Origin: an uncultured Clostridia bacterium
GTDB lineage: Bacteria; Bacillota; Clostridia; Christensenellales; Borkfalkiaceae
Length of the DNA stretch: 42,431 bases
NCBI GenBank assembly: GCA_944363045.1
Contig: CALVTT010000007.1
Location: 1-42,431, forward strand
Direction: 5' to 3'
Shown: positions 9,576 through 36,413 of the stretch, in pieces
How the letters are laid out: every line of letters starts with the position of its first letter
Numbering within the stretch: the first letter of the stretch is position 1
The notes under the pieces: generated by a model
Told to the model about the DNA's origin: nothing
The model's database searches: none
The model's input: the letters and a program-made list of their open reading frames with translations, nothing else
Program-made: the position numbers and the translations under genes

Positions 9576-9699
9576 TTTGAAAAAGAGTTTCGTCCGAGAC
9601 GAGGAGCCTGCGTAAGCGGCAAGGGAGCTTACTGAGCGGTAAGTGACCGCCGCCGCGCGCAAAGGCGACAAAGTATTCGGGCGAAAAACATTTTTCAAA
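9576..9699 (+). ncRNA. 124-bp structured element, copy 1 (candidate antisense RNA or mobile hairpin)
   Basis: Terminal arms TTTGAAAAA/TTTTTCAAA (positions 1-9 with 116-124 of the element) extend into a 10-bp stem (13-22 with 102-111). Inside are a 4-bp stem capped by GTAA (33-44) and a hairpin CTTAC/GTAAG (53-57 with 64-68). A second copy of equal length lies at 36290-36413; 16 of 124 positions differ and eight of these form four compensatory pairs. Wobble pairs and the GNRA loop exist only when the plus strand is read, so the plus strand is the better candidate for the RNA. It sits between the thioredoxin-like gene and pflB and contributes the TGA stop of the former. Confidence 0.6.
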
Positions 9700-9976
9700 G
9701 GCGGGCCTCTGAGATTTTGGCGTCCAGCCAAAGGGACAATATCTCCTCCGGCTGATAGCCCGTGCAGCGCGCCGTCACTTCGCCGTCCTTTAAGATGAGC
9801 ACCGTCGGCACGCGGTCAATTTGGTACTTTTTCACCTCTTCGGCGCTCTCCTCCGTCACTTCGAGGTGCCGAAGGGGGATGCCCCGCTCCGCCGCCAGCT
9901 TATGAAGGATCGGCAGCAGCGAAAAGCAGTTGGCGCAGCTCTCGCCGCTCACTTCCATCAGTTCAATGTTTGCCAT
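9695..9976 (-). CDS. Small thioredoxin-like protein
   Basis: A 93-residue thioredoxin-fold protein. The redox motif is Cys14-Ala-Asn-Cys17 (GESCANCFSL), followed by the fold's usual elements and the cis-proline loop RVPTV with Pro57. No signal peptide is visible, so it acts in the cytoplasm. Its ATG overlaps the TGA of pflA by one base, so it is coupled to pflA and lies between the activase and its target. A role in keeping PflA or PFL cysteines reduced is plausible but inferred only from position. The last codon and the TGA stop are formed by the end of the 124-bp element (9576-9699). Confidence 0.85.
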   Translation of the reverse strand: MANIELMEVSGESCANCFSLLPILHKLAAERGIPLRHLEVTEESAEEVKKYQIDRVPTVLILKDGEVTARCTGYQPEEILSLWLDAKISEARL

Positions 9977-10716
9977 CACTTCCCTCCTATGCCCCTGCAC
10001 AATATGGCGCGGGCGTTTTGGATGCGCTCCTTTTCGGGCGGCCGCACCCCCTCTAAGGGGTACTGTATGCCGAGGGCGCGGTATTTTGCGATGCCCAGCG
10101 TGTGATAGGGCAGCACTTCCACCTTTTCCACCGTCTTCAGACTGTCTATAAATTCTTTGAGGCGATGAAGCGCGCCGTCGTCGTCGGTGATGCCGGGCAC
10201 GAGGACGTGGCGGATCCACATGGGCTTGCCCTTATCGGAGAGGTACTCTGCGAACGCCCTTGCGTGCGCCTCCGAGCGCCCCGTGAGCGACTTATGCGCC
10301 TCCTCGTCGATGTGCTTGATGTCGAGGAGCACGAGGTCGGTGACTTTGAGGAGCTTTTCAAAGGCGCTCCTGTCGGCGTCTTTCCCGGCGGGGAAGGTCG
10401 CGGCGGACGTATCGAGGCAGGTATGCACGCCCTTCGCTTTGAGGAGCGAAAAGAGCTCTGTAAGGAAGTCAAGCTGCAGCATGGGCTCGCCGCCCGTCGC
10501 CGTCACGCCGCCCTTTTGCCCAAAATAACTCTTGTATTTGAGCGCTTCTTTGACGGCTTCTTCCGCAGTTACCTCCCTGCCGCCCCCCGCTTCCCAGGTA
10601 TCGGGGTTGTGGCAGTACTTGCAGCGCATCGGGCAGCCCTGAAAGAAGATGACGAAGCGGATGCCCGGGCCGTCGACCGTGCCGAACGATTCATAGGAAT
10701 GGATATGCCCCGTCAT
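9976..10716 (-). CDS. pflA: Pyruvate formate-lyase activating enzyme
   Basis: A 246-residue radical SAM enzyme that uses S-adenosylmethionine and a 4Fe-4S cluster to form the glycyl radical on PFL. The cluster motif is Cys28-x3-Cys32-x2-Cys35 (GCPMRCKYCHNPDTW). The N-terminal ESFGTVDGPGIRFVIF is diagnostic for PflA, and GGEPMLQ is the SAM-contact motif. Length equals the E. coli enzyme. The substrate glycine here is on a different polypeptide (7213-7449) from the catalytic cysteines. It is the first gene of a four-gene operon (pflA, thioredoxin-like, pflB, grcA-like) behind a ZTP-type riboswitch. GGAGG lies upstream of the ATG. Confidence 0.95.
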   Translation of the reverse strand: MTGHIHSYESFGTVDGPGIRFVIFFQGCPMRCKYCHNPDTWEAGGGREVTAEEAVKEALKYKSYFGQKGGVTATGGEPMLQLDFLTELFSLLKAKGVHTCLDTSAATFPAGKDADRSAFEKLLKVTDLVLLDIKHIDEEAHKSLTGRSEAHARAFAEYLSDKGKPMWIRHVLVPGITDDDGALHRLKEFIDSLKTVEKVEVLPYHTLGIAKYRALGIQYPLEGVRPPEKERIQNARAILCRGIGGK

Positions 10717-10757
10717 GCCGCCCTCCTTCTCTCGCCTTAGAGCGAGCCCTTCCGCAG

Positions 10758-10778
10758 TTTGTGCATTTTGTGCACAAA
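10758..10778. promoter_or_regulatory. Inverted repeat in the pflA leader
   Basis: Arms TTTGTGCA (10758-10765) and TGCACAAA (10771-10778) with a 5-bp spacer, between the riboswitch terminator and the pflA start. It contains a perfect 12-bp palindrome at 10767-10778. It could be an operator or an RNA hairpin near the ribosome binding site. The regulator is unknown. Confidence 0.4.
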
Positions 10779-10783
10779 TCCCT

Positions 10784-10896
10784 CAAAAAAACAGGAAAGG
10801 GCAGAACCTTACAAAGAGGTACTGCCCAGACGAAACGGCTGCTCTGCCCCTACGGTTTCACGCGGTGCTCCGCCAATTCGTCAGTCGCCGTAAGGT
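10784..10896 (-). promoter_or_regulatory. ZTP (pfl-motif) riboswitch with intrinsic terminator
   Basis: On the minus strand, P1 pairs UUACGG (10893-10888) with CCGUA (10855-10851). The joining strand holds CGACUGACGAA (10887-10877), close to the ZTP consensus GACUGGCGAA. P2 is GGCGG/CCGC capped by AGCA (10874-10862). The 3' part has CGUCUGGGCA (10832-10823), matching the consensus CGCCUGGGCA; its CGUC and the upstream GACG vary together relative to the consensus CGCC/GGCG. The CUGGGCAG segment is also the 5' arm of a terminator hairpin (10827-10799) followed by a run of U residues (down to about 10786). This is the classic arrangement in which ZTP/ZMP binding blocks termination and turns genes on. 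pfl operons are known hosts of this class. Confidence 0.78.
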
Positions 10897-10902
10897 GCTA
10901 TC

Positions 10903-10931
10903 ACTATACCACACAATATGCCCCCTGTCAA
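10903..10931 (-). promoter_or_regulatory. Promoter of the pfl operon
   Basis: TTGACA (10931-10926), 17-bp spacer, TATAGT (10908-10903) on the minus strand. The start point near 10896 places the riboswitch at the very beginning of the transcript. Confidence 0.88.
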
Positions 10932-10939
10932 GCGAAAAA

Positions 10940-10986
10940 GCACAAGATTTTCCGATGAAAAGTATTTTCACCACAAAATCTTGTGC
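10940..10986. terminator. Nested palindrome between mreB-like gene and pfl promoter
   Basis: A 12-bp perfect stem GCACAAGATTTT/AAAATCTTGTGC (10940-10951 with 10975-10986) encloses a second inverted repeat TGAAAA/TTTTCA (10956-10970). It probably ends the ppx-maf-mreB transcript. It lies only 9 bp above the -35 box of the pfl promoter, so it might also be an operator. Confidence 0.55.
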
Positions 10987-11018
10987 CAACAGAGGGAACG
11001 ATCCACTATATATACAAC

Positions 11019-12005
11019 TTATTCCAAACGGATGCGGCGCAGCAAAGCGGCGTTGCCGACCGCCCTGCCGCCCCCCAGGACGACCGCCATCTGCGGATCG
11101 CCCGAAAGGTGCGCCTCCATCTGCAGCTTGCGGGAGATATACTCCGCCAACCCCGCAATGTTGCACACGCCGCCCGAAAGGTACAGCCCGTTTTTGAGCA
11201 TGGCTGCCGAAACTTCGGCGGGGAGCTTCTTTAAGACGAGCTCCGCGTACTCCGCGATCTTATCGATATACACCTTGATGGGGAAGACGATGTCCGCCGA
11301 GGAGACGGAGACGGAGCGCGGGCGGCCCGACTTGATGTCGCGCCCGTTGATGATGGTGCTCTGGTTGTCGTCCTCGATGAGGCTGCCCACCGTGTTTTTG
11401 AGCTTCTCGCTCGTCAGCGAACCGATCTTCAAGGAGAAGGTATCGGCGATGTGGTCGATGATATGTACGTCCATATTGCTGCCGCCCACGTTCATGGAAA
11501 GGCCGGCGATGATGCCGTCCAGCGAAAAGGCGGCGATGGAGGTGACGCCCGCGCCGATATCGATGGCAAAGACGGGGTTGCTCTCCGAGAGGGGCACGTC
11601 CTGGCCGAGGACGCTCAAAAAGGGCGTTTCGGCAAAGTTGACCCTGCTGATGCCCGCCGCCTTGGCGACGCGGTACACTTTCTCGCGCGATTCCACCTTA
11701 TAGCCGCAGGGCACGCAGAAGAGCGCTTCGACGGAAGTCCCCCGCTTTACCACCTTGCGGAGGAAATATTCGAGCAGCGCCCCCGCGAGCCGTTCGGAGA
11801 CGATCTCCCCCTCGTAGACGGGAAAGCAGACGTCCGTCTGCTCGGCAGTCTTGCCGAGGAGGCGCTTTGCCTCATTGCCGAAGGCACGAATTTCCCCCGT
11901 ATCCTTCTGCACGGTGACCGCCGTCGCCTCGGCGAGCACGATGCCGCTGCCCAATTTGTAGATCTTCGTCACCGACGTGCCGAAGTCGATCGCAAGTTTT
12001 AACAT
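11019..12005 (-). CDS. Divergent MreB/Mbl-family actin-like protein
   Basis: A 328-residue actin-like ATPase of the MreB family, which guides cell-wall synthesis along the inner membrane. The phosphate-binding loops IDFGTSVTKIY and AIDIGAGVTSIAAF, and the SGGVCNIAGLAEYI segment near the C-terminus, are in the expected places. The region STIINGRDIKSGRPRSVSVS corresponds to the MreB segment with GRDLVTGLP. The usual DLGTAN and LTGGGA motifs are altered (DFGTSV, LSGGVC), so it is not a typical MreB and may be an Mbl/MreBH-type paralogue. No mreC or mreD follows. It overlaps maf by 7 bp, and maf and mreB are often neighbours in bacteria. Confidence 0.8.
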   Translation of the reverse strand: MLKLAIDFGTSVTKIYKLGSGIVLAEATAVTVQKDTGEIRAFGNEAKRLLGKTAEQTDVCFPVYEGEIVSERLAGALLEYFLRKVVKRGTSVEALFCVPCGYKVESREKVYRVAKAAGISRVNFAETPFLSVLGQDVPLSESNPVFAIDIGAGVTSIAAFSLDGIIAGLSMNVGGSNMDVHIIDHIADTFSLKIGSLTSEKLKNTVGSLIEDDNQSTIINGRDIKSGRPRSVSVSSADIVFPIKVYIDKIAEYAELVLKKLPAEVSAAMLKNGLYLSGGVCNIAGLAEYISRKLQMEAHLSGDPQMAVVLGGGRAVGNAALLRRIRLE

Positions 12006-12553
12006 AAGTGCATCTCCTTGATGTATTCACGCACGCGCTCGAGGGGGAGCCCCACGACGCACGAATAACTGCCCTCATAGCCCGAGACAAAGCCGCTGTC
12101 CTGAATGCCGTAGGCGCCCGCCTTGTCGAACGGGGAGCCCGTCCTGATATACGCCTCTATCTCCCCGTCGGTAAGGGGGCGGAAGGTGACGAGCGTCTCC
12201 TCGACGCCCTTCCTCTCCCCCTCGGGCGTGACAAGGCACACCCCGGTATAGACGGAGTGCGTCCTTCCGCTTAAGAGACGGAGCATCTCAAAGGCCTCCG
12301 CCCCGTCTTTGGGTTTGCCTAAAATTTCGCCGTCCAAAGCGACGACGGTATCCGCGCCCAAGACCGCCGCCTCGGGGAAGCGGGAAAAGACCTCCCTCGC
12401 CTTGCCCTCGGCAAAGCGCAGACAGCGCTTTTTTCCGCTCTCCCCCGCCCGCGAAAGCTCCTCGAAAAGGGAGGGCACGACCTTAAAGGCGGGAACGAGT
12501 TCCGAAAGGAGCTCCCTCCGCCGCGGGGAATTGCTGGCAAGGATAAATCTCAC
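11999..12553 (-). CDS. maf: Maf-family nucleotide pyrophosphatase
   Basis: A 184-residue Maf protein. Family members hydrolyse non-canonical or pyrimidine nucleoside triphosphates to the monophosphate and pyrophosphate, and affect septum formation in Bacillus. The N-terminal FILASNSPRRRELL and GADTVVALDGEILGKPKD carry the phosphate-binding and catalytic Asp residues; LLSGRTHSVYTGVCLV is the third family motif. The start is GTG at 12553, overlapping the stop of ppx by four bases (GTGA), so translation is coupled. Its 3' end overlaps the mreB-like gene. Confidence 0.92.
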   Translation of the reverse strand: MRFILASNSPRRRELLSELVPAFKVVPSLFEELSRAGESGKKRCLRFAEGKAREVFSRFPEAAVLGADTVVALDGEILGKPKDGAEAFEMLRLLSGRTHSVYTGVCLVTPEGERKGVEETLVTFRPLTDGEIEAYIRTGSPFDKAGAYGIQDSGFVSGYEGSYSCVVGLPLERVREYIKEMHLC

Positions 12554-14064
12554 AAAATCTCCAGATTTTTCTTGAAAGTGCGCTTGAAGTCGGCGTTCGC
12601 CTTGAGCGCCTGGTTGATCTCCAGCGTGGCGTCGCCGATGACCTCCGTCTTCATGATGACGGAGTCGCCCAGAACGTCGCAGTTGATGCCCGTGACCATG
12701 CCCTGGCCGCTCCTGTCGAGGCTCTCGGCGATGCGCAAAAGCACCCCGAGCTTTCTGACGACTTCGACGTCCTCCTCGTTGACGATGTCCTTATAGCGCG
12801 CCCAATCGGAGGAAGCGAGGTCCTCCTTGGTATGGCAGCCCGCCACAAAGGCGGCGAGCACGATCTCGCGGTGAGTGGCGCCGTAGATGGGCGAATTGAG
12901 GATGATATAGCGGCTGTGCTGCTGGTTGTTGTAAAAGCGCACGCGCTTGCCGCAGTCGTGCAGGCTCGCCGCGATCTTTAAGACCTTCAAATAGATGCGC
13001 GGGAACTTATGCAGCACCCGAAGCTGCTTGAAGAGCTGGATGGAAAGCTTGACGACGTGCTCGACGTGCGCCTCGTCGCAGCCGTAGTACTTTAAGAGCG
13101 TGCTCAAAGAGTAGCCGAGGACATCGGAAAGCGGCCGCTCCTCCGTCATGGGGACGGCCTGGTTGAACATGATGCCCTCTCTTAAGCCGCAGCCGCTGAC
13201 GAGGAAGTTCTCGATGTGCAGATAGTCGAGGAAGGACTTGACGATGGCGAGCGCCGCGGGCATGATGTCCGCCCTGTTGGGCGAAAGGCCGCGGATGCGC
13301 TTGCGCTTCTCGACGTCGAGGACGCGGATCATCTCGTACACCGAGCGGAAGTCGTCCGCCGCGAAGGAGTAGTTGTGCACGATGCTCAAGGGGTACTTCC
13401 TCACGAGGCGGTTGATCTTATAGAGGTTGCGGAAGGTGCCGCCCACGCCGATCATCTGCGTGTCGGGCTCCACTTCCGAAAGCCAATCGATCTTCTTGAA
13501 CTGCTCGGTGAAAAATTCCTCTATTTTTGCCGTCTGCTCCTCGGGGGAGACGCCCTCGTCGGCAAAGAGGTCGGTGAGGGTGACGGCGCCGAAGCCCAGC
13601 GTCGCATAGTGCAGGATGGTGCGGCGGTTGTAGTAGACGATCTTGGTGCTGCCGCCGCCGATCTCGAGGATGATGCCCTTGGGCACGTCCATCGAGTTGA
13701 TGACGCCGCGATAAACGAGCGTCGCCTCCTCCTCTTCCGAGAGGACGCGCACCCGAAGGCCGCACGTCGCCTGGATCTCGTCGAGGAAGGAGCGCTGATT
13801 TTTGGCATGGCGGACTGCCGCCGTCGCCACGGGGATGATGCGGTCTACATGAGACGCCTCCGAGAGGCGTTTGAACATTTTAAGCGTTTTGATGGTCTCC
13901 GCCACGCGCTGCGGTTTCAAAAAGCCGTCGCGGTCCATATCCTGGCCGAGGCGGACGCTCTCCTTGATCTCGTCCTCCACCATGAAGTGCCCCTCACGGA
14001 AGATGTTGACGATGACGAGCCGCGCAGAATTGGAGCCCAGATCGATGATACCTAATTTTTCCAT
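12550..14064 (-). CDS. ppx: Ppx/GppA phosphatase (exopolyphosphatase-type) with HD domain
   Basis: A 504-residue enzyme of the exopolyphosphatase/guanosine pentaphosphate phosphatase family. The N-terminal actin-like fold has GIIDLGSNSARLVI and EIGGGSTKIVYYN as phosphate-binding loops. The C-terminal half carries an HD-type phosphohydrolase-like domain (AASLHDCGKRVRF, then HSRYIILNSPIYG). It should act on polyphosphate chains or pppGpp, linking phosphate storage and the stringent response. ATG at 14064 is chosen because AAAGGA lies 9 bp upstream and the homology starts there; an upstream in-frame ATG has no ribosome binding site. It heads the ppx-maf-mreB operon. Confidence 0.9.
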   Translation of the reverse strand: MEKLGIIDLGSNSARLVIVNIFREGHFMVEDEIKESVRLGQDMDRDGFLKPQRVAETIKTLKMFKRLSEASHVDRIIPVATAAVRHAKNQRSFLDEIQATCGLRVRVLSEEEEATLVYRGVINSMDVPKGIILEIGGGSTKIVYYNRRTILHYATLGFGAVTLTDLFADEGVSPEEQTAKIEEFFTEQFKKIDWLSEVEPDTQMIGVGGTFRNLYKINRLVRKYPLSIVHNYSFAADDFRSVYEMIRVLDVEKRKRIRGLSPNRADIMPAALAIVKSFLDYLHIENFLVSGCGLREGIMFNQAVPMTEERPLSDVLGYSLSTLLKYYGCDEAHVEHVVKLSIQLFKQLRVLHKFPRIYLKVLKIAASLHDCGKRVRFYNNQQHSRYIILNSPIYGATHREIVLAAFVAGCHTKEDLASSDWARYKDIVNEEDVEVVRKLGVLLRIAESLDRSGQGMVTGINCDVLGDSVIMKTEVIGDATLEINQALKANADFKRTFKKNLEIL

Positions 14065-14100
14065 TTGGTTCCGTCCTTTCCATGTAAAATCGTAAGAGCG

Positions 14101-14124
14101 CCGTGCGGATGCCCCTCCGCACGG
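14101..14124 (-). promoter_or_regulatory. Hairpin in the ppx 5' leader
   Basis: A perfect 9-bp stem CCGTGCGGA/TCCGCACGG with a 6-base loop, about 40 nt before the ppx start. It has no T tract, so it may act as a stability or translation element. Confidence 0.5.
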
Positions 14125-14180
14125 ACTACGACGGAATATAAATAAAGACCCATTCTTATTCCAAATCTTACTCTGTGCCC

Positions 14181-14209
14181 ATTTTAACACACGCGGGGGA
14201 ATTTGTCCA
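14181..14209 (-). promoter_or_regulatory. Promoter of the ppx-maf-mreB operon
   Basis: TGGACA (14209-14204), 17-bp spacer, TAAAAT (14186-14181) on the minus strand, giving a leader of about 110 nt. Confidence 0.7.
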
Positions 14210-14236
14210 TACCCTTTGGAAAAATAATTTCCCTTT

Positions 14237-14635
14237 TCACGAAGTTTTTTGGCGCTTTTCGCCCCTTCCGCCCCTCTCCTTGCGTGCGGAGAGCAGTTTC
14301 GCCGCCGAAAGCGCGATGAGGAACGCCCCGAAGGCGCGGCGGAGGAGCAGGGCGGGGAGCCGGGCAGCGAGCAGCGCCCCCGCCGCCGAAAAGGCGAGCG
14401 CGGGCAGGACGAGAAGAAGGAGCCCCTCCCTTTGCAAAAGCCCGTTCTTTGCGTGCACGGAGAGGGCGAGCGCCGCCATGGGGAAGAAGGACAAAAGATT
14501 GACGCCCTGCGCCGCCGTCTGCGTGACGCCGCAGAGCAAGGTCAAAAGAGGGATGAGCGCCGTTCCTCCCCCCATGCCCATGCCGCCCAAGATCCCGCCC
14601 AAGAGCCCGCAGGCAAAGAAGAGATAAAAACTCAC
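14237..14635 (-). CDS. Half-size TauE/SafE (TSUP) membrane protein, second of pair
   Basis: A 132-residue membrane protein with about four helices. The first helix has the TSUP signature GLLGGILGGMGMGGGTALIP. Full-length TauE/SafE permeases, which move sulfite, sulfoacetate or related organosulfur anions, are about 250 residues and contain this motif twice. Here the two halves are separate genes overlapping by four bases, so they likely form a heterodimer equivalent to one full transporter. The substrate is unknown. A basic, Lys/Arg-rich tail closes the protein. Confidence 0.8.
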   Translation of the reverse strand: MSFYLFFACGLLGGILGGMGMGGGTALIPLLTLLCGVTQTAAQGVNLLSFFPMAALALSVHAKNGLLQREGLLLLVLPALAFSAAGALLAARLPALLLRRAFGAFLIALSAAKLLSARKERGGRGEKRQKTS

Positions 14636-14991
14636 GGCAGCAAAAGCCTCACGCCCGCCGCGAACATGACGAGCTCAAAGAGCAGGGAAACGGCCTTTAA
14701 GGGGAGCCTGCCGAGCAGTTTGGCGCCGAGGGCGCCCCCCAGGAGCACCCCCAAAGAGACGGGGACGAACAGCCCCATCGGCACCAGCCCCTCGATGAGA
14801 TAGAGGACGCCGCTCAAAAAAGAGGCGGGTGCGATGACGGCGATGGCGGTCGCATGGGCGGACCGCTCGGGAAGGCCGGCGCGCTCCAATATAGGCACGG
14901 CGAGCATCCCCCCTCCCCCGCCCAGGAGCCCGTTGACCGCCCCCACCGCGGCGCCCCCCGCAAGGTACGCTTTTTTGCCCGATCTTTGCAT
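14632..14991 (-). CDS. Half-size TauE/SafE (TSUP) membrane protein, first of pair
   Basis: A 119-residue protein with four predicted membrane helices and the motif AVGAVNGLLGGGGGMLAVPI near the N-terminus, the TSUP half-repeat. The ATG at 14991 is chosen because GGAGGGAAGAAT precedes it; a longer frame starting at 15078 would add a basic stretch without homology. It overlaps the next half by four bases (ATGA), so the two are made together. No sulfur-metabolism gene is nearby to hint at the substrate. Confidence 0.8.
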   Translation of the reverse strand: MQRSGKKAYLAGGAAVGAVNGLLGGGGGMLAVPILERAGLPERSAHATAIAVIAPASFLSGVLYLIEGLVPMGLFVPVSLGVLLGGALGAKLLGRLPLKAVSLLFELVMFAAGVRLLLP

Positions 14992-15088
14992 ATTCTTCCC
15001 TCCCGCGGGCAGAAACGCCCGTTTTTTAACAGTTTGCGCGCCTGCAAAAAAAATTACCCTTTTTTTCGCGGTTTTCATGCAGAAATGC

Positions 15089-15117
15089 TTGCCTCTCGGC
15101 GCGTTTTCTTGTAAAAT
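15089..15117 (+). promoter_or_regulatory. Promoter of the large lipoprotein gene
   Basis: TTGCCT (15089-15094), 17-bp spacer, TAAAAT (15112-15117). The start codon is 78 bp downstream. Confidence 0.6.
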
Positions 15118-15194
15118 AGTGCTATTGCAAGAATTGGCTCACGGGGGCGCAGTATGCCCTTCGCAAGCCCGAGATCAAATAAAAAGGGTGTTTT

Positions 15195-18100
15195 ATGGCT
15201 AAAAACAATCGCAAGGAAACCTGGAGGAAGTACGTCCTTTCCGCGCTCTCGCTCACGGTCGCGACGACTCTCTCCTTAGGCATCCTCACCGCCTGCACGG
15301 ACGATACGCAGGATACGGATGACGACGACAGCACCGTCTCCGCGACGGATACCCAGCTCATCCGCAACGGCAATTTTGAATTTTACTCCGACAAGGACAT
15401 TGAAGAAGTCCGCGAAAAGCTCGGCGTCGTCAATACGCCGAACAATTGGACGTTCTCCGCGGGTTCCCCCACGTCGGACACCGCCTCGGGCATCATCGAC
15501 GCGGCAGCTTGGTCGTACTTCACGCGCACGGGCGGCTATCCCTTCACGACCTACACGAAGGACGACGAGGAAGTGACCACCTTCGCCTCCGTCGAGGATG
15601 CCGCCGCGCATTGGGAAGACGAAAACGTCTCCGCCTACGACCGCCTCAAATTCCTCGATATCTACGAGGATGAGATCGACGACCTCGACGAAAATTCCGC
15701 CGAAGCGGAGCTCTTCGACGAGTACAGCTACTCCGTCGACTTTGAGGACGTGGAATACCTGATGGAGGAGATCGGCGCCGACCTCACCCTGCACGACGAC
15801 ACCGCCCAGCGCGAGAACGGCGACACGAGCGTGCTCATGATCCACAACAGGAGGACGAGCGAGAACGTCCTCGGCACCGCCCAGCACTACACCTCGGGCA
15901 CGACCATCACCCTCGCGGCAGGCACGGCGGCAAAGGTCTCCGTCTGGGTACGCACGGACGATCTCAACCACTACTATTCCGAGAGCGAGTCGACGGAAGT
16001 CACCCGCCGCGGCGGCGCCTACATCGGCATCACCAACACGGTGGGCGGCACCACGCTCGACCAGATGCAGATCAAGAACATCAACACCAAGGGCGAATGG
16101 CAGCAATACACCGTCTATGTGCGGGCAAGCACCTTCGCCTCCTCCACCTTCACGGTGGTGCTCGGCCTCGGCCAGGGCAGCTCCTCCGACCGCTACGAGC
16201 ACGTCAACGGTTACGCCTTCTTCGACGACGTCTCCTGCGAGATCATCTCCGCCGAAGCCTATGAGGATGCGGTGACAAATGACGTGCACCTCTGCACCGT
16301 CAACTCCCTCGCCGAAGAGAAGATCTTCGATAGGGACACCGTCACGGGCGACACCTATGCGCTCGACCTCTATGCGGGCTTTGACGCGGCGGCAGATCTC
16401 CTCGAAGGCACGACCTTCTCGCTCACGAGCGAAGTTTCGGGCAGCAAGACGTACACCTCCGAGAGCATCGACGCCTCCCTCGGCGACAGCGAGGACAACG
16501 TGACGGGGCGCATGACGATGGATGAGATCGCCGCAAGCTCCAACCGCTATCTGCAAAACGTCTACAAGAACGACCTCGAGGACAAGTACCCCTTCGGCGA
16601 GGACGGCGATATCCTGATGCTGCTCTCGGCGAACGGCGCTGCTTACACCGCGAAGTCGGGCGACATCACCCTCGCCGCGGGCGAGCGGATGCTCGTCTCC
16701 TTCTTCGTCAAGACGAGTGAGATCGCCTCTGGCCTCACGGGCGCGAACGCCACCCTCGTGGACGGCGAGAACCGCACCTCCCTCACCGCCTTCGATTCCA
16801 ACACCGTCGACACCGTGGACATCGACGACGAGAACAAAGACATCTATTCGGGCTGGGTGCAGTGCTTCTTCTTCCTCACCAACGAGACGGACGAGGATAA
16901 GACCTGCCACATCGAATTTACCTACGGGCCCACGAGCATCGTCTCCTCCGACCGCTACGACTATGAGGACGGCTACGCGGCCTTCACCAACTTCGAGACC
17001 AAGTCCTTGACGCGCACCGAATACAGCTACGCCTCGACGGGCGACCGCGCGGTGAAAGTCTCCCTGACGGGCAAGACGGAAAACACGAGCGCCTTTGACG
17101 AAGTTTCGGCGACGGCAAGAAAGGACATCGAACAGCGCCCCGCCCTGCCCGCTTCCTTCACGGGCACCCTCGGCGGCAGCACGGCGGTCGTTCCCGACGG
17201 CGGCGTCTCCAACGTCAAGCCCGAGAACGTCTACGCGGGTCTTCTCGATGCCGAATACGCCGATAACTACTACGCCTCCTCCGAGGCATGGAGAAACATC
17301 CTCGACACCTCCGCCGCAAACGGCGATGAGTGGTGGACGGGCCTCTTCGGCAACGCCAACCGCCCTCTCGTGATCGCGAACGGCGAAGAAGCCTCCTACG
17401 GCTTCATCTCGGGCAGCCTCACCCTCTCGGCGAGCACCGCACAGCGCGTCTCCATGCGCGTGCGCCTCTCCGAAGACGCCAAGGCGTACATCCTCCTCAC
17501 GGATACGACGAACTCCAAGGCCGCGGGCGAGCCCATGTCGGTGAATACCCCCGCCGTCACCTATTGGTACGACGACAACGGCGATATCTGCCGCATCGAC
17601 CCCTCCTCCGACGACTTCGACCGCCGCAGTGACGTGCTGTTCACCCTGAACGATAACGGGCTCTATACCCGCACGGACGGCTCCGACTCCGCATATTATG
17701 CCAACCTCTACAACTATGAGACGGACGAGGAGGGCAACTATGTTTCCCGCGACGGCACGGTGGCATTCTGGGTCAACGACGGCAAGACCTATGCCTACTA
17801 CGACTTCGAGACGGAAAGCTACTCCACCGAAGTTTCCTGCCTTCCCACCGAAGTGGACGGCGAGACCATCACCCGCTACGACTTCCGCCAAACGGCGCTC
17901 CCCTCCGCCGTCATCGAAGTGGACGGCGCCAAGGCGGCAGGCGAATGGGTGACGGTGAGCTTCTATCTCAACGCGGGCAGCGAAGAGAAGACCTACCGCC
18001 TGGAAGTGTGGAGCGGCTCGCGCGACGGCTCCGCGCCCAACCCCGCGGGCAGCTATGTCATCTTCGACAACTACGCGAACGAGACGGCGAGCGACTTTGA

Positions 18101-18689: not shown

Positions 18690-18709
18690 CGTCTGAAAAT
18701 CACCAAAGC

Positions 18710-18954: not shown

Positions 18955-18963
18955 TTTCGGTCA

Positions 18964-30087: not shown

Positions 30088-30120
30088 ACCATCCTCCCGC
30101 GGCGTTTGCCGCAAACAAAA

Positions 30121-30140
30121 GGGCAGCCGCTTGGCTGCCC
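30121..30140 (-). terminator. Terminator after the exonuclease gene
   Basis: Stem GGGCAGCC/GGCTGCCC with a 4-base loop, followed on the minus strand by TTTTGTTTG. It lies right after the stop at 30145 and before the methyltransferase start. Confidence 0.75.
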
Positions 30141-30144
30141 GCAG

Positions 30145-31101
30145 TTACATATCGAGCGCTCCCGTGAGGCTTTCGAGCGGGATATACGCCGCCCCCGCCG
30201 TGAGGGCGTTCTGGAAGCGCAGCCCCCCTTCGCCGCGGGCGATATAGACGTTGCACTCGGTGGGGTGCGAGGTGTACTTGCCGCCCGAATCGTAGATGGC
30301 GGCGACGAGCCGGCGGGAGATCTCCACGTCGTCCTCGATGTCCTTTGCGAAGCAGAACACCTTGCCCTCGAGCGAGCCGCCTTTGGGACGCCGCTGGTGC
30401 ATCTTCTTGTTGACGAAGCGGTAGAACTCCTCATGCGCCTTGGCGTGGCGTTCGCGCGCCTCGTCCCGCTCGCGGATGTACGCCCTGAGCCCCTCGGAAG
30501 TGAGCGGCCGTATCTGATAGCCCGCGATCTTGCCCGCACGGATGCCGTAGCGGCGGCAAAGCCCCGTGACGTTCGTCTTCTCCTCGGCGCAGAGCACGCG
30601 GCATACGCGCATGGTGGCGTAGGCGTCGTCGGCGGCGCGGTGGGGCACGAAGTCGACCCCCAGCTCCTCCGCCATCGCTCCCAGCCCCACCTGACGGGTA
30701 AATTCCGAGCGCGTGTTCATATAAAAGAACTGCGTATCGTAAAAGTCGAAGCGGAAGGAAGGGAGATGATAGCGGCGCGTCTCTAAATTGAGGTAATTGA
30801 CGTCGTTCATGGTGGCGTGCCCCAAAACGACGGCGTCCTTGTCCTCCAAAAGCGCCTTGATGCGTTGATATTCGGCGGGGAAGGCGGGATGCTTTTTGAA
30901 GTCCTCGTACTCATAGGGGAGCACGAGCCCCTCGCCGCCCTTGCGGCCCGTGAGGTGGAACTTGCCGCGGGGATCGATGAGGATGTCCTCCTTTTTCAGG
31001 ACGTTGAAACTTTCATCCGTCAGCACATACCCGAAGGCGCAGATCTTCGCCGTGTTCTTAAAGACGCAGGCGCACTCGATGTCGAAAAAAACGTACTTCA
31101 T
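30145..31101 (-). CDS. DnaQ-like 3'-5' exonuclease with C-terminal BRCT-like domain
   Basis: A 318-residue DEDDh exonuclease. Exo I is FFDIECA (Asp7, Glu9), Exo II is GHATMNDVNYL (Asp100) and Exo III is HRAADDAYAT (His154, Asp159). After a basic helical linker, residues from about 240 on (SLEGKVFCFAKDIEDD, then LVAAIYDSGGKYTSHPTECN) look like a BRCT domain, as in DNA polymerase III epsilon-type proteins of Firmicutes and in DNA ligase. It may act in DNA repair or RNA trimming; the substrate cannot be read from the sequence. It starts 9 bp after the serS stop, so both are probably co-transcribed. Confidence 0.82.
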   Translation of the reverse strand: MKYVFFDIECACVFKNTAKICAFGYVLTDESFNVLKKEDILIDPRGKFHLTGRKGGEGLVLPYEYEDFKKHPAFPAEYQRIKALLEDKDAVVLGHATMNDVNYLNLETRRYHLPSFRFDFYDTQFFYMNTRSEFTRQVGLGAMAEELGVDFVPHRAADDAYATMRVCRVLCAEEKTNVTGLCRRYGIRAGKIAGYQIRPLTSEGLRAYIRERDEARERHAKAHEEFYRFVNKKMHQRRPKGGSLEGKVFCFAKDIEDDVEISRRLVAAIYDSGGKYTSHPTECNVYIARGEGGLRFQNALTAGAAYIPLESLTGALDM

Positions 31102-31110
31102 CCAAACAGC

Positions 31111-32397
31111 TTACTTCTTGGGCACGATCTCCTTGGTGCCGCCCATATACGGCCACAGCACTTCGGGGATCCCGACGCTGCCGTCCGCGCGCAGGTGGTT
31201 CTCGACAAAGGCGATGAGCATACGCGGGGGTGCGACGACGGTGTTGTTGAGGGTATGTGCAAAGGCGGTGCCCTTGCCGCTCTTATAGCGGATGTTGAGG
31301 CGGCGCGCCTGCGCGTCGGTGAGGTTGGAGCAGGAGCCCACTTCAAAGTACTTCTTCTGGCGGGGGCTCCACGCCTCCACGTCCACGCTGCGGTATTTGA
31401 GGTCGGCAAGGTCGCCCGAGCAGCATTCGAGCGTGCGCACGGGGATGCCCATGGAGACGAAGAGCTCGACGGTGTAGCGCCACATCTTTTCGTACCACTC
31501 GGCGCTCTCCTCGGGCTTGCAGATGACGATCATCTCCTGCTTTTCAAACTGATGGATGCGGTAGATGCCGCGCTCCTCGATGCCGTGCGCGCCCTTCTCC
31601 TTGCGGAAGCAGGGGGAATAGCTCGTGAGCGTCAGGGGGAGCTTGCTTTCGTCGATGGTCTGGCCCATGAAGCGGCCGATCATGGAGTGTTCGCTCGTGC
31701 CGATGAGATAGAGGTCCTCGCCCTCGATCTTGTACATCATGCCGTCCATCTCTTCAAAGCTCATGACGCCCGAAACGACGTCGGAGCGGATCATGAAGGG
31801 CGGGATGCAGTAGGTGAAGCCCTTCCCGATCATGAAGTCGCGCGCATAGGCGAGCACGGCGGAATGCAGGCGCGCCACGTCGCCCGTCAAATAGTAAAAG
31901 CCCTGGCCGCTCGTCCTTCTGGCGCTGTCGATGTCGATGCCCGCAAGCTTTTCCAAAATATCGAGGTGATAGGGAACTTCGAAGTCGGGCACTTTGGGCT
32001 CCAAAAAGCGCCGGCCTTCGACGTTCTCCGTGTCGTCCCTGCCGATGGGCGTCTCGGGGGAGATGATGTTGGGGATCGCCATCATCACCTTTTTGAGCTG
32101 TTCGGAGACCTCCCCTTCCTCCTTCTCGATCTTAACAAGGCGCTCTGCGTCGGCATTGACCTGCGCCTTGACCTTCTCCGCCTCCTCCGTCTTCTTTTCG
32201 CGCATGAGCATACCGATCTGCTTGGAGAGGGCGTTGCGGCCGGCGCGGAGATTATCGCCCTCCTGCGTGAGGGCGCGGCGGCGCGCGTCGAGAGAGAGCG
32301 CCTCATCGACGAGGGGGAGCTTCCTCTCCTGGAATTTCTTTCTGATGTTCTCGCGCACCAGCTCGGGCTGCGTGCGGATGAGATTGATATCGATCAT
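31111..32397 (-). CDS. serS: Seryl-tRNA synthetase
   Basis: A 428-residue class II aminoacyl-tRNA synthetase that charges tRNA-Ser. The N-terminal MIDINLIRTQPELVRENIRK and the long antiparallel coiled coil (about 25-105) that grips the tRNA variable arm are typical. Motif 2 is SPCFRKEKGAHG...RIHQFEKQE and motif 3 is NNTVVAPPRMLIAFVENH. Length is standard. GAGG lies upstream of the ATG. The leader is only about 25 nt long, so there is no room for a T-box, which controls serS in many Firmicutes. Confidence 0.96.
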   Translation of the reverse strand: MIDINLIRTQPELVRENIRKKFQERKLPLVDEALSLDARRRALTQEGDNLRAGRNALSKQIGMLMREKKTEEAEKVKAQVNADAERLVKIEKEEGEVSEQLKKVMMAIPNIISPETPIGRDDTENVEGRRFLEPKVPDFEVPYHLDILEKLAGIDIDSARRTSGQGFYYLTGDVARLHSAVLAYARDFMIGKGFTYCIPPFMIRSDVVSGVMSFEEMDGMMYKIEGEDLYLIGTSEHSMIGRFMGQTIDESKLPLTLTSYSPCFRKEKGAHGIEERGIYRIHQFEKQEMIVICKPEESAEWYEKMWRYTVELFVSMGIPVRTLECCSGDLADLKYRSVDVEAWSPRQKKYFEVGSCSNLTDAQARRLNIRYKSGKGTAFAHTLNNTVVAPPRMLIAFVENHLRADGSVGIPEVLWPYMGGTKEIVPKK

Positions 32398-32427
32398 ATT
32401 TGCCTCGAAATATCGTTATTCGGCTTT

Positions 32428-32456
32428 ATTATACACCATATTTGTATAAAAATCAA
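32428..32456 (-). promoter_or_regulatory. Promoter of serS
   Basis: TTGATT (32456-32451), 17-bp spacer, TATAAT (32433-32428) on the minus strand, 31 bp above the serS start. Confidence 0.85.
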
Positions 32457-32507
32457 ACGTTTGCCCGCCGTTTTGAAAAGGCGAAGGGCGGCGCGCAAAA
32501 ATTTTCT

Positions 32508-32536
32508 TTGACTTTTCGCCCGCATTCCTGTATAAT
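32508..32536 (+). promoter_or_regulatory. Promoter of the P-type ATPase gene
   Basis: TTGACT (32508-32513), 17-bp spacer, perfect TATAAT (32531-32536). It is divergent from the serS promoter, with the two -35 boxes about 50 bp apart. Confidence 0.88.
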
Positions 32537-32597
32537 GATATTATCTTGCACGATTACCCTGCGGGGCGGCAGCGCCCCGTTTCCATCGGGAGGAACT

Positions 32598-35204
32598 ATG
32601 GCTAACGACGAAAGACCGAACGGCAGGAACCGCACCTTCTTTACCCATCTTTTAGAGCGCGGCGGCATCCGCCTCTCCGCCCCCAACAAGCAGCGGCAGA
32701 AGCTGATGCGCAAATTCAAAAAACTCAAAAAGTTGCCCTCCGACGCCGATACGGAGCGCTTTTCCCCCGCGCCCGACGAGGGCCTTTCGGAGGAGCAGGT
32801 CGAGCGCCGCTTCAATGAATTTTTATTCAACGACGTCAACAAGCGCTACTCGAAATCGTACGCCTCCATCTTCATCGGCAACATCTGCACCTTCTTCAAC
32901 CTTCTGTGCGTGCTCGTCGCGGCGGCGCTCATCTTTGCGGACGCCGAGATCACCCAATTCCTCTTTGTCGTCATCTTCTCCGCCAACCTTCTCATCGGCA
33001 TCGTGCAGGAAATTTTAGCCAAACAGCAGATCGATAAGCTCGCCGTGCTGCTCTCTTCCAACGTCAAAGTACTGCGGGGCGGCAAGGAGAGCGAGATCCC
33101 CGTCAAAGAGGTCGTCCTCGACGACATCCTCTTTCTGGACGCCGGCCAGCAGGTGCCCGCCGACTGCATCCTCCTCGACGGCAGCATCGAAGTCAACGAA
33201 TCGCTTTTGACGGGCGAGAGCGACTCCGTCAAAAAGCGCGAAGGGGAGACGCTGTATGCGGGCTCCTTCGTGGTGAGCGGCGCCTGCCGCGTGCGTGCCG
33301 ACAAAGTGGGCGCCGCGACCTACCTCAACAAGCTCACCTCGAAAGCCAAAAAATATAAGCGCCCCTCCTCGGAGATCATGAACTCCATCCGCCTCTTCAT
33401 CCGCGCCATTGCTCTGCTTATCGTCATCGTGGCGGCGCTGATGAGCTGGACCAACTGGAAGAACATCGACGCGGACAATATGGGCGATCTCATTTCTGAG
33501 ACCATCCAATATTCGGGCGCCGTCGTCGTGGGCATGATCCCCTCGGGGCTCCTGCTCTTAACGTCGCTTGCGATGGCGGTGGGCGTGAGGCGCCTCGGCA
33601 AGAAGCAGACGCTCGTGCAGGACCTTTACTCCCTCGAAATGCTCGCCCGCGTCAACGTTTTATGCCTCGACAAGACGGGCACCATCACGGACGGCAGGAT
33701 GACGGTGAGCGACTGCATGATCTTGGAGACGGAGACGGAATACACCGTCGACGAGGTGATGGGCAGTATGCTCTCCGCCCTCGACGACAACAACCAGACC
33801 TCCATCGCCCTTTTAGACCGCTTCGGCGCGACGCCCGTTCTGCAGCCGACGGCGCTCCTGCCCTTCTCCTCCAAGCGCAAGCTCTCCGCCGTCACCTTCG
33901 GACAGGACGGCACTTATGTGATGGGCGCGCCCGAGTTCGTGCTCCGGCCCATGCCCGCCCGCATCGAGCGCATCGTCAAGCAGTATGCCCAGTCGGGGCT
34001 GCGCGTCCTCGCCCTCGCCCATGCCGAGGGCAGCATCGAGGGGGAGGCCATCCCCGCCGGGGCGCGCGCCGTCGCCCTCATCACCCTTGCCGACAACCTG
34101 CGCCCCGAGGCGACGGAGACCGTCAAGTGGTTCCGCGACAACGACGTGAATATCCGCATCATCTCGGGCGACAACCCCGTGACCGTCGCCGAAGTCGCCC
34201 GCCGCGCGGGCGTCCCGGGAGCAGGGAAGTATATCTCCCTCGACGGGCTCACCGACATCGAAGTGGAGAACATCGCCCATGAGTACACGGTGTTCGGCCG
34301 CGTCACGCCCGAGCAGAAGGCCGTCCTCGTCCGCACCCTGAAGCGCGAAGGGAATACCGTCGCCATGACGGGCGACGGCGTCAACGATATCCTCGCCCTC
34401 AAGGAGGCGGACTGCGCCATCTCCGTCGCCTCGGGCAGCGAGGCGGCGCGCAACGTCTCGCACATCGTCCTCATGAACAACAACTTCATGAACCTGCCTT
34501 CCGTCGTCAACGAGGGGCGGCGCGTCATCAACAACATCAAGAACAGCGCCTCCCTCTATATCATGAAGACGCTCTTTACGGCGCTCCTCGCCATCCTCTG
34601 CGTCTTCATGCAGGTGCCCTACTTCTTCACCACCAACAACCTCATCCTCTTTGAGATGTTCGTAGCGGCGATCCCCTCCTTCGTCATCGCCCTGCAGCCC
34701 AACAACAACCGCGTCAAGGGCAACTTTATGATGTACGTCCTCTCGCGCTCGGTGCCGGGCGCGGTGACCCTGCTTTTGTGCGTGCTCGCAGTGCATATCG
34801 GCAACGTCTACCTGAGCGGCGAGCTCTTTGTTCCCGCCGTCGACGAAGGCGGCATCCCCATCCTCGGCGCGGCGGGCGAGGCGCTCGGCACGATGCAGCC
34901 CACGCTGGGCTTCGGCGACAACTTCAAGCCCATGCTGGTGCTCGCCGTCACCTTCGGCGGCATCGTCATGCTCTACCGCATCCTGCAGCCCCTCAACGTG
35001 CTGCGCGCCCTCGTCTACTTCGGCAGCCTCGCCATCTGCGTCATCATCCTGAGCGTGCCCGTGCTCGGCAACCTCGTCTATACGGGCTGGGGGGACGTCT
35101 CCTTCACCCTGCAGCAGATCTTGTATATCGTCTGCATCATGCTGGCAGCCTTCCCCGTCTCGGGCTTCCTGACGAAGGCGTGCGACCTCTTCAACAGCGA
35201 TTGA
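32598..35204 (+). CDS. P-type cation ATPase, CtpE-like
   Basis: An 868-residue P-type ATPase pumping cations across the membrane. The phosphorylated aspartate is Asp358 in CLDKTGTITDG. The actuator loop is SLLTGESDSV, and the hinge motif is AMTGDGVNDILALKEAD. The helix-4 motif is GMIPSGLLLLTSLAMAVGV and the C-terminal part has IPSFVIALQPNNNRV, both as in the CtpE-like group (calcium uptake in mycobacteria) rather than in heavy-metal pumps. There is no metal-binding CxxC domain at the N-terminus; instead a basic 60-residue tail precedes the first helix. The ion is not certain. GGGAGG lies 5-6 bp before the ATG. It is a single-gene unit with its own promoter and terminator. Confidence 0.9.
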   Translation: MANDERPNGRNRTFFTHLLERGGIRLSAPNKQRQKLMRKFKKLKKLPSDADTERFSPAPDEGLSEEQVERRFNEFLFNDVNKRYSKSYASIFIGNICTFFNLLCVLVAAALIFADAEITQFLFVVIFSANLLIGIVQEILAKQQIDKLAVLLSSNVKVLRGGKESEIPVKEVVLDDILFLDAGQQVPADCILLDGSIEVNESLLTGESDSVKKREGETLYAGSFVVSGACRVRADKVGAATYLNKLTSKAKKYKRPSSEIMNSIRLFIRAIALLIVIVAALMSWTNWKNIDADNMGDLISETIQYSGAVVVGMIPSGLLLLTSLAMAVGVRRLGKKQTLVQDLYSLEMLARVNVLCLDKTGTITDGRMTVSDCMILETETEYTVDEVMGSMLSALDDNNQTSIALLDRFGATPVLQPTALLPFSSKRKLSAVTFGQDGTYVMGAPEFVLRPMPARIERIVKQYAQSGLRVLALAHAEGSIEGEAIPAGARAVALITLADNLRPEATETVKWFRDNDVNIRIISGDNPVTVAEVARRAGVPGAGKYISLDGLTDIEVENIAHEYTVFGRVTPEQKAVLVRTLKREGNTVAMTGDGVNDILALKEADCAISVASGSEAARNVSHIVLMNNNFMNLPSVVNEGRRVINNIKNSASLYIMKTLFTALLAILCVFMQVPYFFTTNNLILFEMFVAAIPSFVIALQPNNNRVKGNFMMYVLSRSVPGAVTLLLCVLAVHIGNVYLSGELFVPAVDEGGIPILGAAGEALGTMQPTLGFGDNFKPMLVLAVTFGGIVMLYRILQPLNVLRALVYFGSLAICVIILSVPVLGNLVYTGWGDVSFTLQQILYIVCIMLAAFPVSGFLTKACDLFNSD

Positions 35205-35218
35205 GCAAAACACGATCG

Positions 35219-35248
35219 CGGCGCGGGCTCCCCGCGCCGTTTTATTTT
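35219..35248 (+). terminator. Terminator of the P-type ATPase gene
   Basis: A 9-bp stem CGGCGCGGG/CCCGCGCCG with a 3-base loop followed by TTTTATTTT. Confidence 0.92.
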
Positions 35249-35292
35249 GGAAAGGGGCGGCGCTGTTTGCGCCGCCCCCCAATTTGGAAGCA

Positions 35293-35322
35293 CCCGCGGG
35301 GCGGCATCGGCCGCCCCGCGGG
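35293..35322 (-). terminator. Terminator after the ABC exporter permease
   Basis: A 13-bp GC-only stem (35293-35305 with 35310-35322), 30 bp past the permease stop; followed on the minus strand by GCTTCCAAATT. A second GC stem at about 35256-35277 follows. Confidence 0.65.
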
Positions 35323-35351
35323 CGCTCTTTATTTTCTCACTCTTATTTCGT

Positions 35352-36257
35352 TTATACCCGGTGCTTCTTTGCGCGTAGATAGGCGGCAAAGACGAAGCAA
35401 GCCGCAAACAGCAGCGCAACGCCCGCCAGAATGACCGCCGCGCCCCAGCCGGGGAGCTGCGTGCCGAAGAAATCGATGTGTACGGAGAACTCGCCCGAAA
35501 GGGCGTCCGCAAAGGGCTTGCCCGCGACGCTCTCCATCTCCCCCAGCGCCCCCTGCATCAGAAAGCCGCGGAAGAGCCCCGCAGAGTAGCTCCCGGGCAC
35601 AAAGAGGGTGATGTACTGCACCCACTCGGGGAAGGAACTGATGGGGATATAGGCGCCGATGAGGAAGCCCGTCACCGTGCCGACGATGATGTTGATGCCC
35701 GTAAACGCTCCCTCCGACTGCAAAAAGCCCATCAAAAAGACGAGCATCGTCGAGGAGGCGACGACAGAGAGGAGCGCCGTGCCGATGGTGCCGAGAACGT
35801 CGGTAAGCGTTAAAAACCAGCTCCCGGAAAGGGCAAGATAGGCAAAGCAGACGCCCAGCACGATGAGCGAGATGACCGCCCCCGCGATGAGCACGGACAA
35901 AAAGTAGGCAGCCGGCGCCGCCCACGAGGGCACGGGAGAGGAGAGAAAGTCCGCCGCCGCCCCCTTGATGCGGTCCTGGATCATGATGCCGCAGGCGCAG
36001 AGGGGCACGGTGATGCAGGTGGTCGCCATCACGCCCGAGAGCATCCAGCTGTCGCTGAAGGCGCGCACGGTATCGTCCGCCTCCACCCCGAACGCCGCCA
36101 GCGCCTCAATGATGCCGTCCGACTGCATTCGCCCGATAAAGAGCACATACAGCCCCAGCACGATGAGGGGGGAGAGCAGCGAGAAGAAGACGTTTGCCCT
36201 GTCCCGCAGAAATACTTTTAAGTTGCGCATGGTGAGCGCGTAGAGGGCGGTGGTCAT
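35352..36257 (-). CDS. ABC-2 type exporter permease
   Basis: A 301-residue membrane protein of the ABC2_membrane family, with the typical N-terminus MRNLKVFLRDRANVFFSLLS, an extracellular loop after helix 1, and five further helices. It should form the channel for the ATPase encoded upstream. Related pairs export antibiotics, bacteriocins, lipids or polysaccharides; the substrate is not evident. GGAGG lies 13 bp before the ATG, rather far, so translation may be weak. The 124-bp structured element lies 32 bp upstream, between the two exporter genes. Confidence 0.85.
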   Translation of the reverse strand: MTTALYALTMRNLKVFLRDRANVFFSLLSPLIVLGLYVLFIGRMQSDGIIEALAAFGVEADDTVRAFSDSWMLSGVMATTCITVPLCACGIMIQDRIKGAAADFLSSPVPSWAAPAAYFLSVLIAGAVISLIVLGVCFAYLALSGSWFLTLTDVLGTIGTALLSVVASSTMLVFLMGFLQSEGAFTGINIIVGTVTGFLIGAYIPISSFPEWVQYITLFVPGSYSAGLFRGFLMQGALGEMESVAGKPFADALSGEFSVHIDFFGTQLPGWGAAVILAGVALLFAACFVFAAYLRAKKHRV

Positions 36258-36289
36258 ATTGATACGATATCCTCCATGGAAAGCGTCGG

Positions 36290-36413
36290 TTTGGAAAAGA
36301 GTTTTGGCTGAGACGAGGAGCCTGCGTAAGCAGCAAGGGAGTTTACGAAACGGTAAATGACCGCAGATGCGCGCAAAGGCGACAAAGTATTCAGCCAAAA
36401 AACATTTTTCAAA
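36290..36413 (+). ncRNA. 124-bp structured element, copy 2 (candidate antisense RNA or mobile hairpin)
   Basis: Same length as copy 1 at 9576-9699, 108 of 124 positions identical. Its long stem (positions 13-22 with 102-111) is fully Watson-Crick here, while copy 1 has three different pairs and one G-U. The GTAA-capped stem and the TTTAC/GTAAA hairpin are present. The right end provides the TGA stop of the ABC ATPase. It is in the same orientation relative to its host operon as copy 1. Confidence 0.6.

Follow-up and report, generated by a model that had tools for sequence, protein, structure and literature searches.

A ~124-bp structured repeat family of Clostridia, probably related to the ERIC elements of Enterobacteria

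Introduction

The question raised by the locus described here is what two closely similar 124-bp elements are, and how they came to lie where they do, in a 42,431-nucleotide stretch of DNA from an uncultured Clostridia bacterium (contig CALVTT010000007.1 of assembly GCA_944363045.1; this whole stretch is referred to as the window), both of them being, as the original prediction had stated, antisense to the minus-strand operons in which they sit. The answer to which the data point is that they belong to a ~124-bp repeat family common in this clostridial order which probably forms, with the ERIC elements of Enterobacteria (enterobacterial repetitive intergenic consensus, also named IRU or RU-1; described in 1990–91), a wider superfamily. 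As judged from sequence comparison, the family is dispersed, its stems covary, its plus strand folds better, G-U pairs are retained in its outer stem and A-C ones are rare there, its members are present or absent as insertions and, in three of four copies, the 3′ end of the element falls at the stop of a gene running antisense to it. The interpretation that we favor, and hold to be probable, is that of a small ERIC-like mobile element that would travel in trans, folded as a single strand, by means of some enzyme and be joined to DNA at gene 3′ ends.

The two copies and their fold

Copy 1 (9576..9699) and copy 2 (36290..36413), both given on the plus, better-folding strand, are 124 bp each and align without gaps, direct comparison yielding exactly 16 differences (87% identity). 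Element positions 16/108, 18/106, 20/104 and 53/68, which had been predicted to change in a compensatory manner, are indeed paired and double-changed in both minimum-energy folds; the compensatory pairs are five instead of four, the fifth being 43/79 (G-C to A-U), whose position 43 had been taken for a lone wobble, and they account for 10 of the 16 differences. The other proposed wobble position, 5, does pass from A-U to G-U. On the contrary, the GNRA hairpin loop read into the fold is not upheld, as the closing pairs that it needs form in 65% and 23% of the sequences only and the GNRA-like bases belong to a two-sided internal loop.

Both copies form a single rod of the same kind on the plus strand, with energies of −58.2 kcal/mol (z −7.6) for copy 1 and −47.8 kcal/mol (z −6.7) for copy 2 that none of 200 shuffles equaled, the corresponding minus-strand values being −41.7 kcal/mol (z −3.2; 0/200 shuffles) and −29.6 kcal/mol (z −2.9; 2/200 shuffles). 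In the fold of copy 1, the arms of the outer stem P1 are 9577..9584 and 9691..9698, the latter containing the stop codon of the upstream gene; stem P2, which holds 16/108, 18/106 and 20/104, is made of 9588..9600 and 9673..9686, and the central hairpin GGGAG-CUUAC-loop-GUAAG-UGACC, of which ERIC has a counterpart of the same form, occupies 9623..9648. The central hairpin of copy 2 (36337..36362) reads GGGAG-UUUAC-loop-GUAAA-UGACC. As to the U tract that follows the GC hairpin of an intrinsic terminator, U5 lies inside P1 of both window copies and is lacking from several other subfamilies.

Covariation and anatomy of the family

More copies were found by BLAST in the same genome, which rules out a two-copy curiosity, and matches occur in 9 of 41 genomes, the genome of the window being one of the nine. 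Thirty-one copies were aligned with MAFFT (alignment A2) and given a hand-drawn structure of 39 pairs; the seeds being BLAST hits passed through a hairpin pattern, the hairpin was preselected and the outer stems were not. Paired cells amount to 88.6% (68.6% after shuffling), 30 of the 39 pairs display double changes, in 235 cells as against 66.9 in shuffled alignments, none of 500 shuffles is as high on any of five measures and shifting the partner by 1–3 columns lowers the pairing to 32–41%, figures to be read with two caveats, namely that shuffled controls may be outdone by kinship alone, and that shifted versions fare worse partly because the structure was derived from this very alignment. 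All nine pairs of P1 show double changes over the 31 copies, and the central hairpin, by which the copies were chosen, is paired in 100% of its cells. Further homologues lacking covariation, named beforehand as the finding that would speak against the element, did not emerge. As to the pairs changed in the window, occupancy in exact register is 100% for 53/68 and 84% for 16/108, and 23% and 19% for 18/106 and 20/104, the last two being low because P2 is one base out of register in most other copies.

From the outside inward the element consists of P1, an asymmetric loop, P2, internal loop A (about ACGAGGAG / CGACAAAGU), P3 and the central hairpin GG-GAG-CUUAC-loop-GUAAG-UGA-CC. The G.U beside the G.A steps is conserved in 31/31 copies, and GAG/UGA and GAG/CGA would represent tandem G.A steps. 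P1 is mostly 9–12 bp, seldom longer, and since its sequence differs among copies a fixed terminal inverted repeat was rejected.

This property bears on the possibility that the element is an ordinary miniature inverted-repeat transposable element (MITE), namely a duplex cut and pasted by a transposase in trans, with the structure as a by-product of the inverted repeat. A MITE would be, as this element is, small, dispersed, palindromic and either present or absent at a site, and passages of PMC2229807 class ERIC as such; however, no single inverted repeat is fixed at the ends here, where the outer stem both varies and covaries, and duplex transposition gives no reason for a strand-biased structure, two conserved internal loops and a one-sided placement at stop codons. 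We consider a MITE unlikely.

Two other identities were discarded. The element is not part of a longer RNA, as a right flank alike in a subset of copies had suggested, that flank being the 3′ end of queA; nor is it a known Rfam RNA, there being no Rfam match over the element in the window at the gathering score, in six loci at E ≤ 1 or in 19 loci at the gathering score, and weak hits at E ≤ 1 in L002 falling outside it. Thus, the remark that no known family could be recognised holds for Rfam, and the many relatives, ERIC included, had been missed. Head-to-tail arrays of 2–4 copies occur at L036, L061, L066, L083, L087 and L136, with a spacing of mostly 122–155 bp and diverged units; in those at queA, part of that gene's end recurs in the spacer.

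Which strand is folded

Selection on a plus-strand product had been proposed from the wobble pairs of the two window copies. Within P1 of the 31-copy alignment G-U is found in 31 cells and A-C in 5, cells counting sequences and not events, and the plus strand is the more stable one in 31/31 of these copies, in 29/29 ERIC copies (alignment A5) and in 21/23 copies from distant Bacillota (alignment A6, made without L292, L290, L302, L270 and L275). Over all mostly Watson-Crick pairs the G-U:A-C ratio is 40:22 in A2 (p 0.03), a smaller excess than that of P1, and 28:4 in A5. Taken together, the bias for G-U over A-C and the plus-strand stability speak for selection on one strand, be it RNA or single-stranded DNA, strongest in P1, and to this extent the proposal stands.

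Insertion history and the search for a mover

The mobility suggested for the element is supported by its empty sites. Copy 2 is, as read from the relatives, a recent insertion: its site is cleanly empty in G001, G043, G056, G015, G045 and G004, where the ATPase and permease genes adjoin, and in G001, whose ATPase is 90% identical, these genes overlap by ATGA with nothing between them. The trx-pflB sites corresponding to copy 1 in 16 relatives comprise 13 with a short gap and no element, one (G001) with ~20 nt resembling an element end, which are read as a remnant of the element, L238 with a longer gap and L235, which was set aside. Beside the element ends the empty sites of the relatives are strongly diverged, too far for a TA target-site duplication to be read. 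At L360 (G024:C75) the ABC ATPase end is followed, where the orthologue of copy 2 would be expected, by a long insert of another kind, parts of which appear to be structured.

Folding on one strand is also a property of REP-like single-stranded DNA hairpins moved by a RAYT (Y1) transposase, and GGAG beside the central palindrome is reminiscent of REP tags. Y1_Tnp is present in 9/31 genomes, yet not in the copy-rich G009, G012 and G000, six Y1 loci hold no copy and the size and double internal loop are unlike REP, so that RAYT was rejected and the REP-like scheme is largely refuted and very improbable. A reverse transcriptase was likewise rejected, being present in 5/10 copy-rich genomes, in 0/13 tested of the 14 zero-copy ones and in none of the three richest; those of the copy-rich genomes G092, G058, G009, G077 and G106 are, as an observation, suggestive. 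Carriage by phages or plasmids was dismissed as well, neither an exact pattern in viral contigs nor blastn of copy 1 giving a match.

Spread across genomes

A covariance model built from 31 clostridial copies (R1) matches copy 1 with 114.6 bits (E 1.2e-24 in its own genome) and copy 2 with 109.1 bits. The per-genome counts obtained with it are lower bounds, 33, 11 or 8 candidates having been scored per genome. In the genus of the window, 87/101 genomes have matches at E ≤ 0.01 and the number per genome ranges from 0 (14/101) up to the 32 of G012; the 18 of the own genome show that the "twin" first noticed is a real pair of much too narrow a scope. This genus includes Candidatus Gallimonas gallistercoris, as follows from the DNA that the latter has in common with G100, a genome of the genus. 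Matches are found in 130/297 genomes and 51/125 genera of the order at E ≤ 0.001, and in 14/398 genomes of a phylum-wide draw at E ≤ 1e-4, own genome included, which leaves 13/397 others.

Among the matches listed for the hairpin pattern in named genomes are Candidatus Coproplasma, Gallimonas and other Clostridia, as well as Buttiauxella, Citrobacter, Serratia, Raoultella, Pantoea and Leminorella. The model assigns to stretches picked by this pattern E values of 1.5e-11 (Sulfurovum), 7.5e-5 (Flavobacteriales), 4.5e-4 (Saprospiraceae) and 3.3e-3 (Opitutaceae bacterium). In the phylum of Buttiauxella, 398 genomes were drawn and 13 of them, G388 included, have matches at E ≤ 0.001; 12 of 19 loci from this draw bear the ERIC hairpin within five substitutions, and the remaining seven (G1154, G807, G1177, G844, G1140) are without it and look like other branches. 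At L376, L381, L382 and L386 (G1177, G844, G1140) there is a repeat having the plan of ERIC and another sequence, e.g., GAGCCAGGCAAGGC ... GGAGTTTAC ... GTAAATGAGCA. Also L292 (G473) folds and looks like a family member.

Probable kinship with ERIC

The enterobacterial genomes were reached by the hairpin pattern, whereas the R1 matches inside them were not preselected. In the whole genomes of G388, G390, G391 and G392 this Clostridia-trained model finds 32, 33, 20 and 8 matches, respectively, at E ≤ 0.1, the best E values being 3e-5 to 2e-4, and 38/40 matches fetched from two enterobacterial genomes carry the ERIC hairpin. The ERIC sample consisted of the 30 best BLAST matches of G388, the 20 best of the 33 R1 matches of G390 and all 20 of G391 (18 kept). 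These enterobacterial elements are ERIC by their core, since the published primers ERIC1R and ERIC2, whose strings figure in ERIC-PCR papers, differ from 29 Buttiauxella copies at a median of 4 and 3 of 22 positions, and one Buttiauxella copy matches 5376/5426 E. coli genomes. Passages of PMC2229807 give ERIC as a 127-bp element with orientation-dependent effects on the mRNA of the upstream gene in Yersinia, and passages of PMC2267715 list it for E. coli, Y. pestis and V. cholerae.

The window copies share with ERIC a length of ~124–127 bp, a single long imperfect hairpin with the same central core GGAG-CUUAC...GUAAG-UGAC, many dispersed copies, an internal loop that aligns in form, the same better-folding strand and the same side at stop codons. 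Indeed, the trait of a ~127-bp imperfect palindrome forming one long hairpin is found in the 124 nt of both copies, and the core hairpin GGAG-CUUAC-N-GUAAG-UGAC is present as GGGAGCUUAC...GUAAGUGACC in copy 1 and with U-A in place of C-G in copy 2. On the other hand, the ends of ERIC are near-constant (TACCC...GGGTA) whereas the clostridial outer stems vary and covary, ERIC has primer sites whereas the window copies mismatch each primer at 10–11 of 22 positions, and the hosts are Clostridia. The window copies are not ERIC proper, because their primer sites are at background and their ends are not fixed; they are ERIC-like and, on these comparisons, probably distant kin of ERIC by descent.

Convergence on one hairpin in place of descent would explain why close sequence likeness is confined to the hairpin core and why the reciprocal search is weak. 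We find it doubtful, in that the model matches full-length elements in whole genomes without preselection, and the wobble and placement biases are common to both groups. Furthermore, copies of G514, which belongs to the phylum of the window, have the ERIC loop AAGGCGGC / AGCCAACG(C/A)A beside a fold of the Bacillota type, and by bearing this loop they link the clostridial family with ERIC. In the reciprocal search, R2, a model made from ERIC only, finds L023 at 1e-5 and three G514 copies at 2e-4 to 6e-4, and gives one off-element match in the window at 0.35.

Placement at stop codons

The position of the element was analyzed in 139 full copies flanked by ~1 kb or more on each side, 66 of the 205 matches of A3 (70 of 117 named stretches) and A4 having been dropped for a short flank, partial length or duplication; genes were plain open frames of at least 300 nt (450 for the co-directional count) and not annotated genes. 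The original prediction had also offered a regulator of the downstream gene as an option; the constant neighbour of the element is the upstream gene, whose stop codon is found at the 3′ end of the element: the stop of an antisense gene falls within −10 to +17 nt of the right end in 104/139 copies, the mirror case at the left end occurring in 10/139. The 104 right-end genes have 80 distinct C-terminal hexamers, and 25 of the ends are queA-like. Due to this location, the complement of the element comes directly after the stop in the mRNA of the antisense gene and can supply that stop; in G000 both upstream genes get their stop codon from the element. Where the setting is co-directional, element and operon run antisense to each other in 44/46 cases, and in 67/76 with a looser gene caller, by which an open frame crosses the element in 29/150 copies.

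The same asymmetry is seen in distant Bacillota (right end 14/25, left end 0/25) and, in weaker form, the placement rule is common to ERIC, where right and left ends score 13 vs 4 of 30 in Buttiauxella, 4 vs 0 of 20 in Serratia and 4 vs 2 of 18 in Citrobacter, i.e., 21 vs 6 of 68 when pooled (p 0.006). Fusion of ERIC to the 3′ ends of two Erwinia genes is described in passages of Delihas 2007 (PMC2759123).

The right-hand gene ends like QueA in 26/150 copies over several genera, and the two that were checked match QueA models nearly full-length. In the queA copies P1 mostly overlaps the last codons, and there are 18 distinct nine-pair P1 strings with at least two standard pair types per position; the recurrence reflects either one old insertion kept across genera or a repeated target. 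It is here that a host-owned control element of the 3′ untranslated region, acting in mRNA decay, termination or ribosome release and oriented by its function in the upstream mRNA, finds its arguments, namely the stop codons at the element, this recurrence at queA with so many P1 strings, and the orientation-dependent effects of ERIC on mRNA reported in passages of PMC2229807. Nevertheless, the strand present in the upstream mRNA is the less stable one, the matches vary between none and 32 inside one genus and the insertion of copy 2 broke a tight gene overlap; a host-owned element thus appears a minority prospect, rather unlikely on balance.

A possible mechanism and its weak points

In the mechanism that we favor, the element, which codes for nothing, would be moved in trans by some enzyme, to which the two conserved G.A-rich internal loops would identify the folded strand, be it RNA or single-stranded DNA, and which would join the 3′ end of the element to DNA at gene ends; pairing of the outer stem would thereby be kept while its sequence drifts. 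Once in place between the genes of an operon, the element may alter mRNA decay, as printed for ERIC, or uncouple translation. More tentatively, and as a possibility to which we give rather less than even weight, ERIC could be one branch of a superfamily extending over Bacillota, Pseudomonadota and perhaps Campylobacterota and Bacteroidota, made of tiny elements that encode no protein, travel folded as a single strand and enter DNA where a gene antisense to them has its stop codon, a bacterial counterpart of the short interspersed elements with a shared partner enzyme.

Several results weigh against this mobile, ERIC-related interpretation. The searches for Y1 transposases and reverse transcriptases found no mover, and no transposition was observed; Y1 transposase is absent from G000, G001, G009 and G012, and no reverse transcriptase occurs in the three genomes richest in copies (G012, G111 and G100). 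The G-U bias is unable to separate RNA from single-stranded DNA, and is weaker when all mostly Watson-Crick pairs are counted, not only in A2 but also in the distant Bacillota (19:14, p 0.49) and in the model-fitted alignments A3 (87:55) and A4 (114:102), with a single pair, out of register in a subfamily, providing 10/22 A-C cells in A2 and 34/102 in A4. As to the kinship with ERIC, primer mismatches of 22 are 10 and 10 for copy 1 and 11 and 11 for copy 2, a shuffled copy 1 having on average 11.1 and 10.4; with R2, copy 1 reaches E 0.005 and copy 2 gives no match at E ≤ 1, and the pattern-picked gammaproteobacterial genome G389 is without an R1 match at E ≤ 0.1. Finally, the placement at stop codons could stem from selection after insertion, and most clostridial records are metagenome assemblies.

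Comparison with other systems

REP/BIME elements, which are often near stop codons, resemble this family as dispersed palindromes and differ in their RAYT transposases, no Y1 transposase being linked to the family. Integron attC sites follow immediately upon the stop codon of a gene, and the strand that folds is antisense to that gene, with variable stems and conserved end boxes. As an analogy of working only, attC and the family would be alike in stop-codon position, antisense folded strand and variable stems, and would differ in the conserved part, which is the ends in attC and, between variable ends, the centre in the family. REP measures 20–40 bp according to the abstract of PMC3733652. 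Passages of PMC2267715 and PMC2229807 present bcr1 (Bacillus cereus group), RUP and Correia/NEMIS as small structured intergenic repeats with mobile traits, which are set beside the family by description only; RUP differs in that an IS630-like mover is reported for it.

In a short survey of the open-licence literature on ERIC-type repeats, Firmicutes/Clostridia included, none of the titles listed describes this family. The class is known; the clostridial branch and the stop-codon placement rule appear to be new. ERIC has long been used for fingerprinting gut bacteria, and the window repeats look like its distant relatives. What the family adds, and ERIC alone could not, is covariation deep enough to establish the fold and to indicate one strand, together with a placement rule seen in three groups. 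How such repeats move had, in passages of the 2007 review (PMC2229807), no experimental answer; the question becomes testable in terms of a protein that would bind the shared G.A loops on one strand and act at gene ends.

Neighbouring genes in the window

Upstream of copy 1 in the minus direction lies a thioredoxin-like gene (9695..9976, minus strand; NCBIfam thioredoxin 4.2e-10, under the curated cut-off), the TGA stop of which (9695–9697) is inside P1, and the next gene after the element is that of pyruvate formate-lyase (7474..9534, minus strand; TIGR01255, 1088.6 bits, above the cut-off). Copy 2 is preceded in the minus direction by an ABC transporter ATPase gene (36409..37320, minus strand; drrA-like TIGR01188, 276.5 bits, under the curated cut-off), with its TGA stop (36409–36411) in P1, and followed by the ABC permease gene (35352..36258, minus strand), whose start at ~36258 is read from an ATG after GGAGG and whose counterpart in G001 is the one overlapping the ATPase gene. 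A ZMP/ZTP riboswitch scoring over the Rfam gathering score is located on the minus strand at 10817–10898 of the window, upstream of the pflA-trx-pflB genes.

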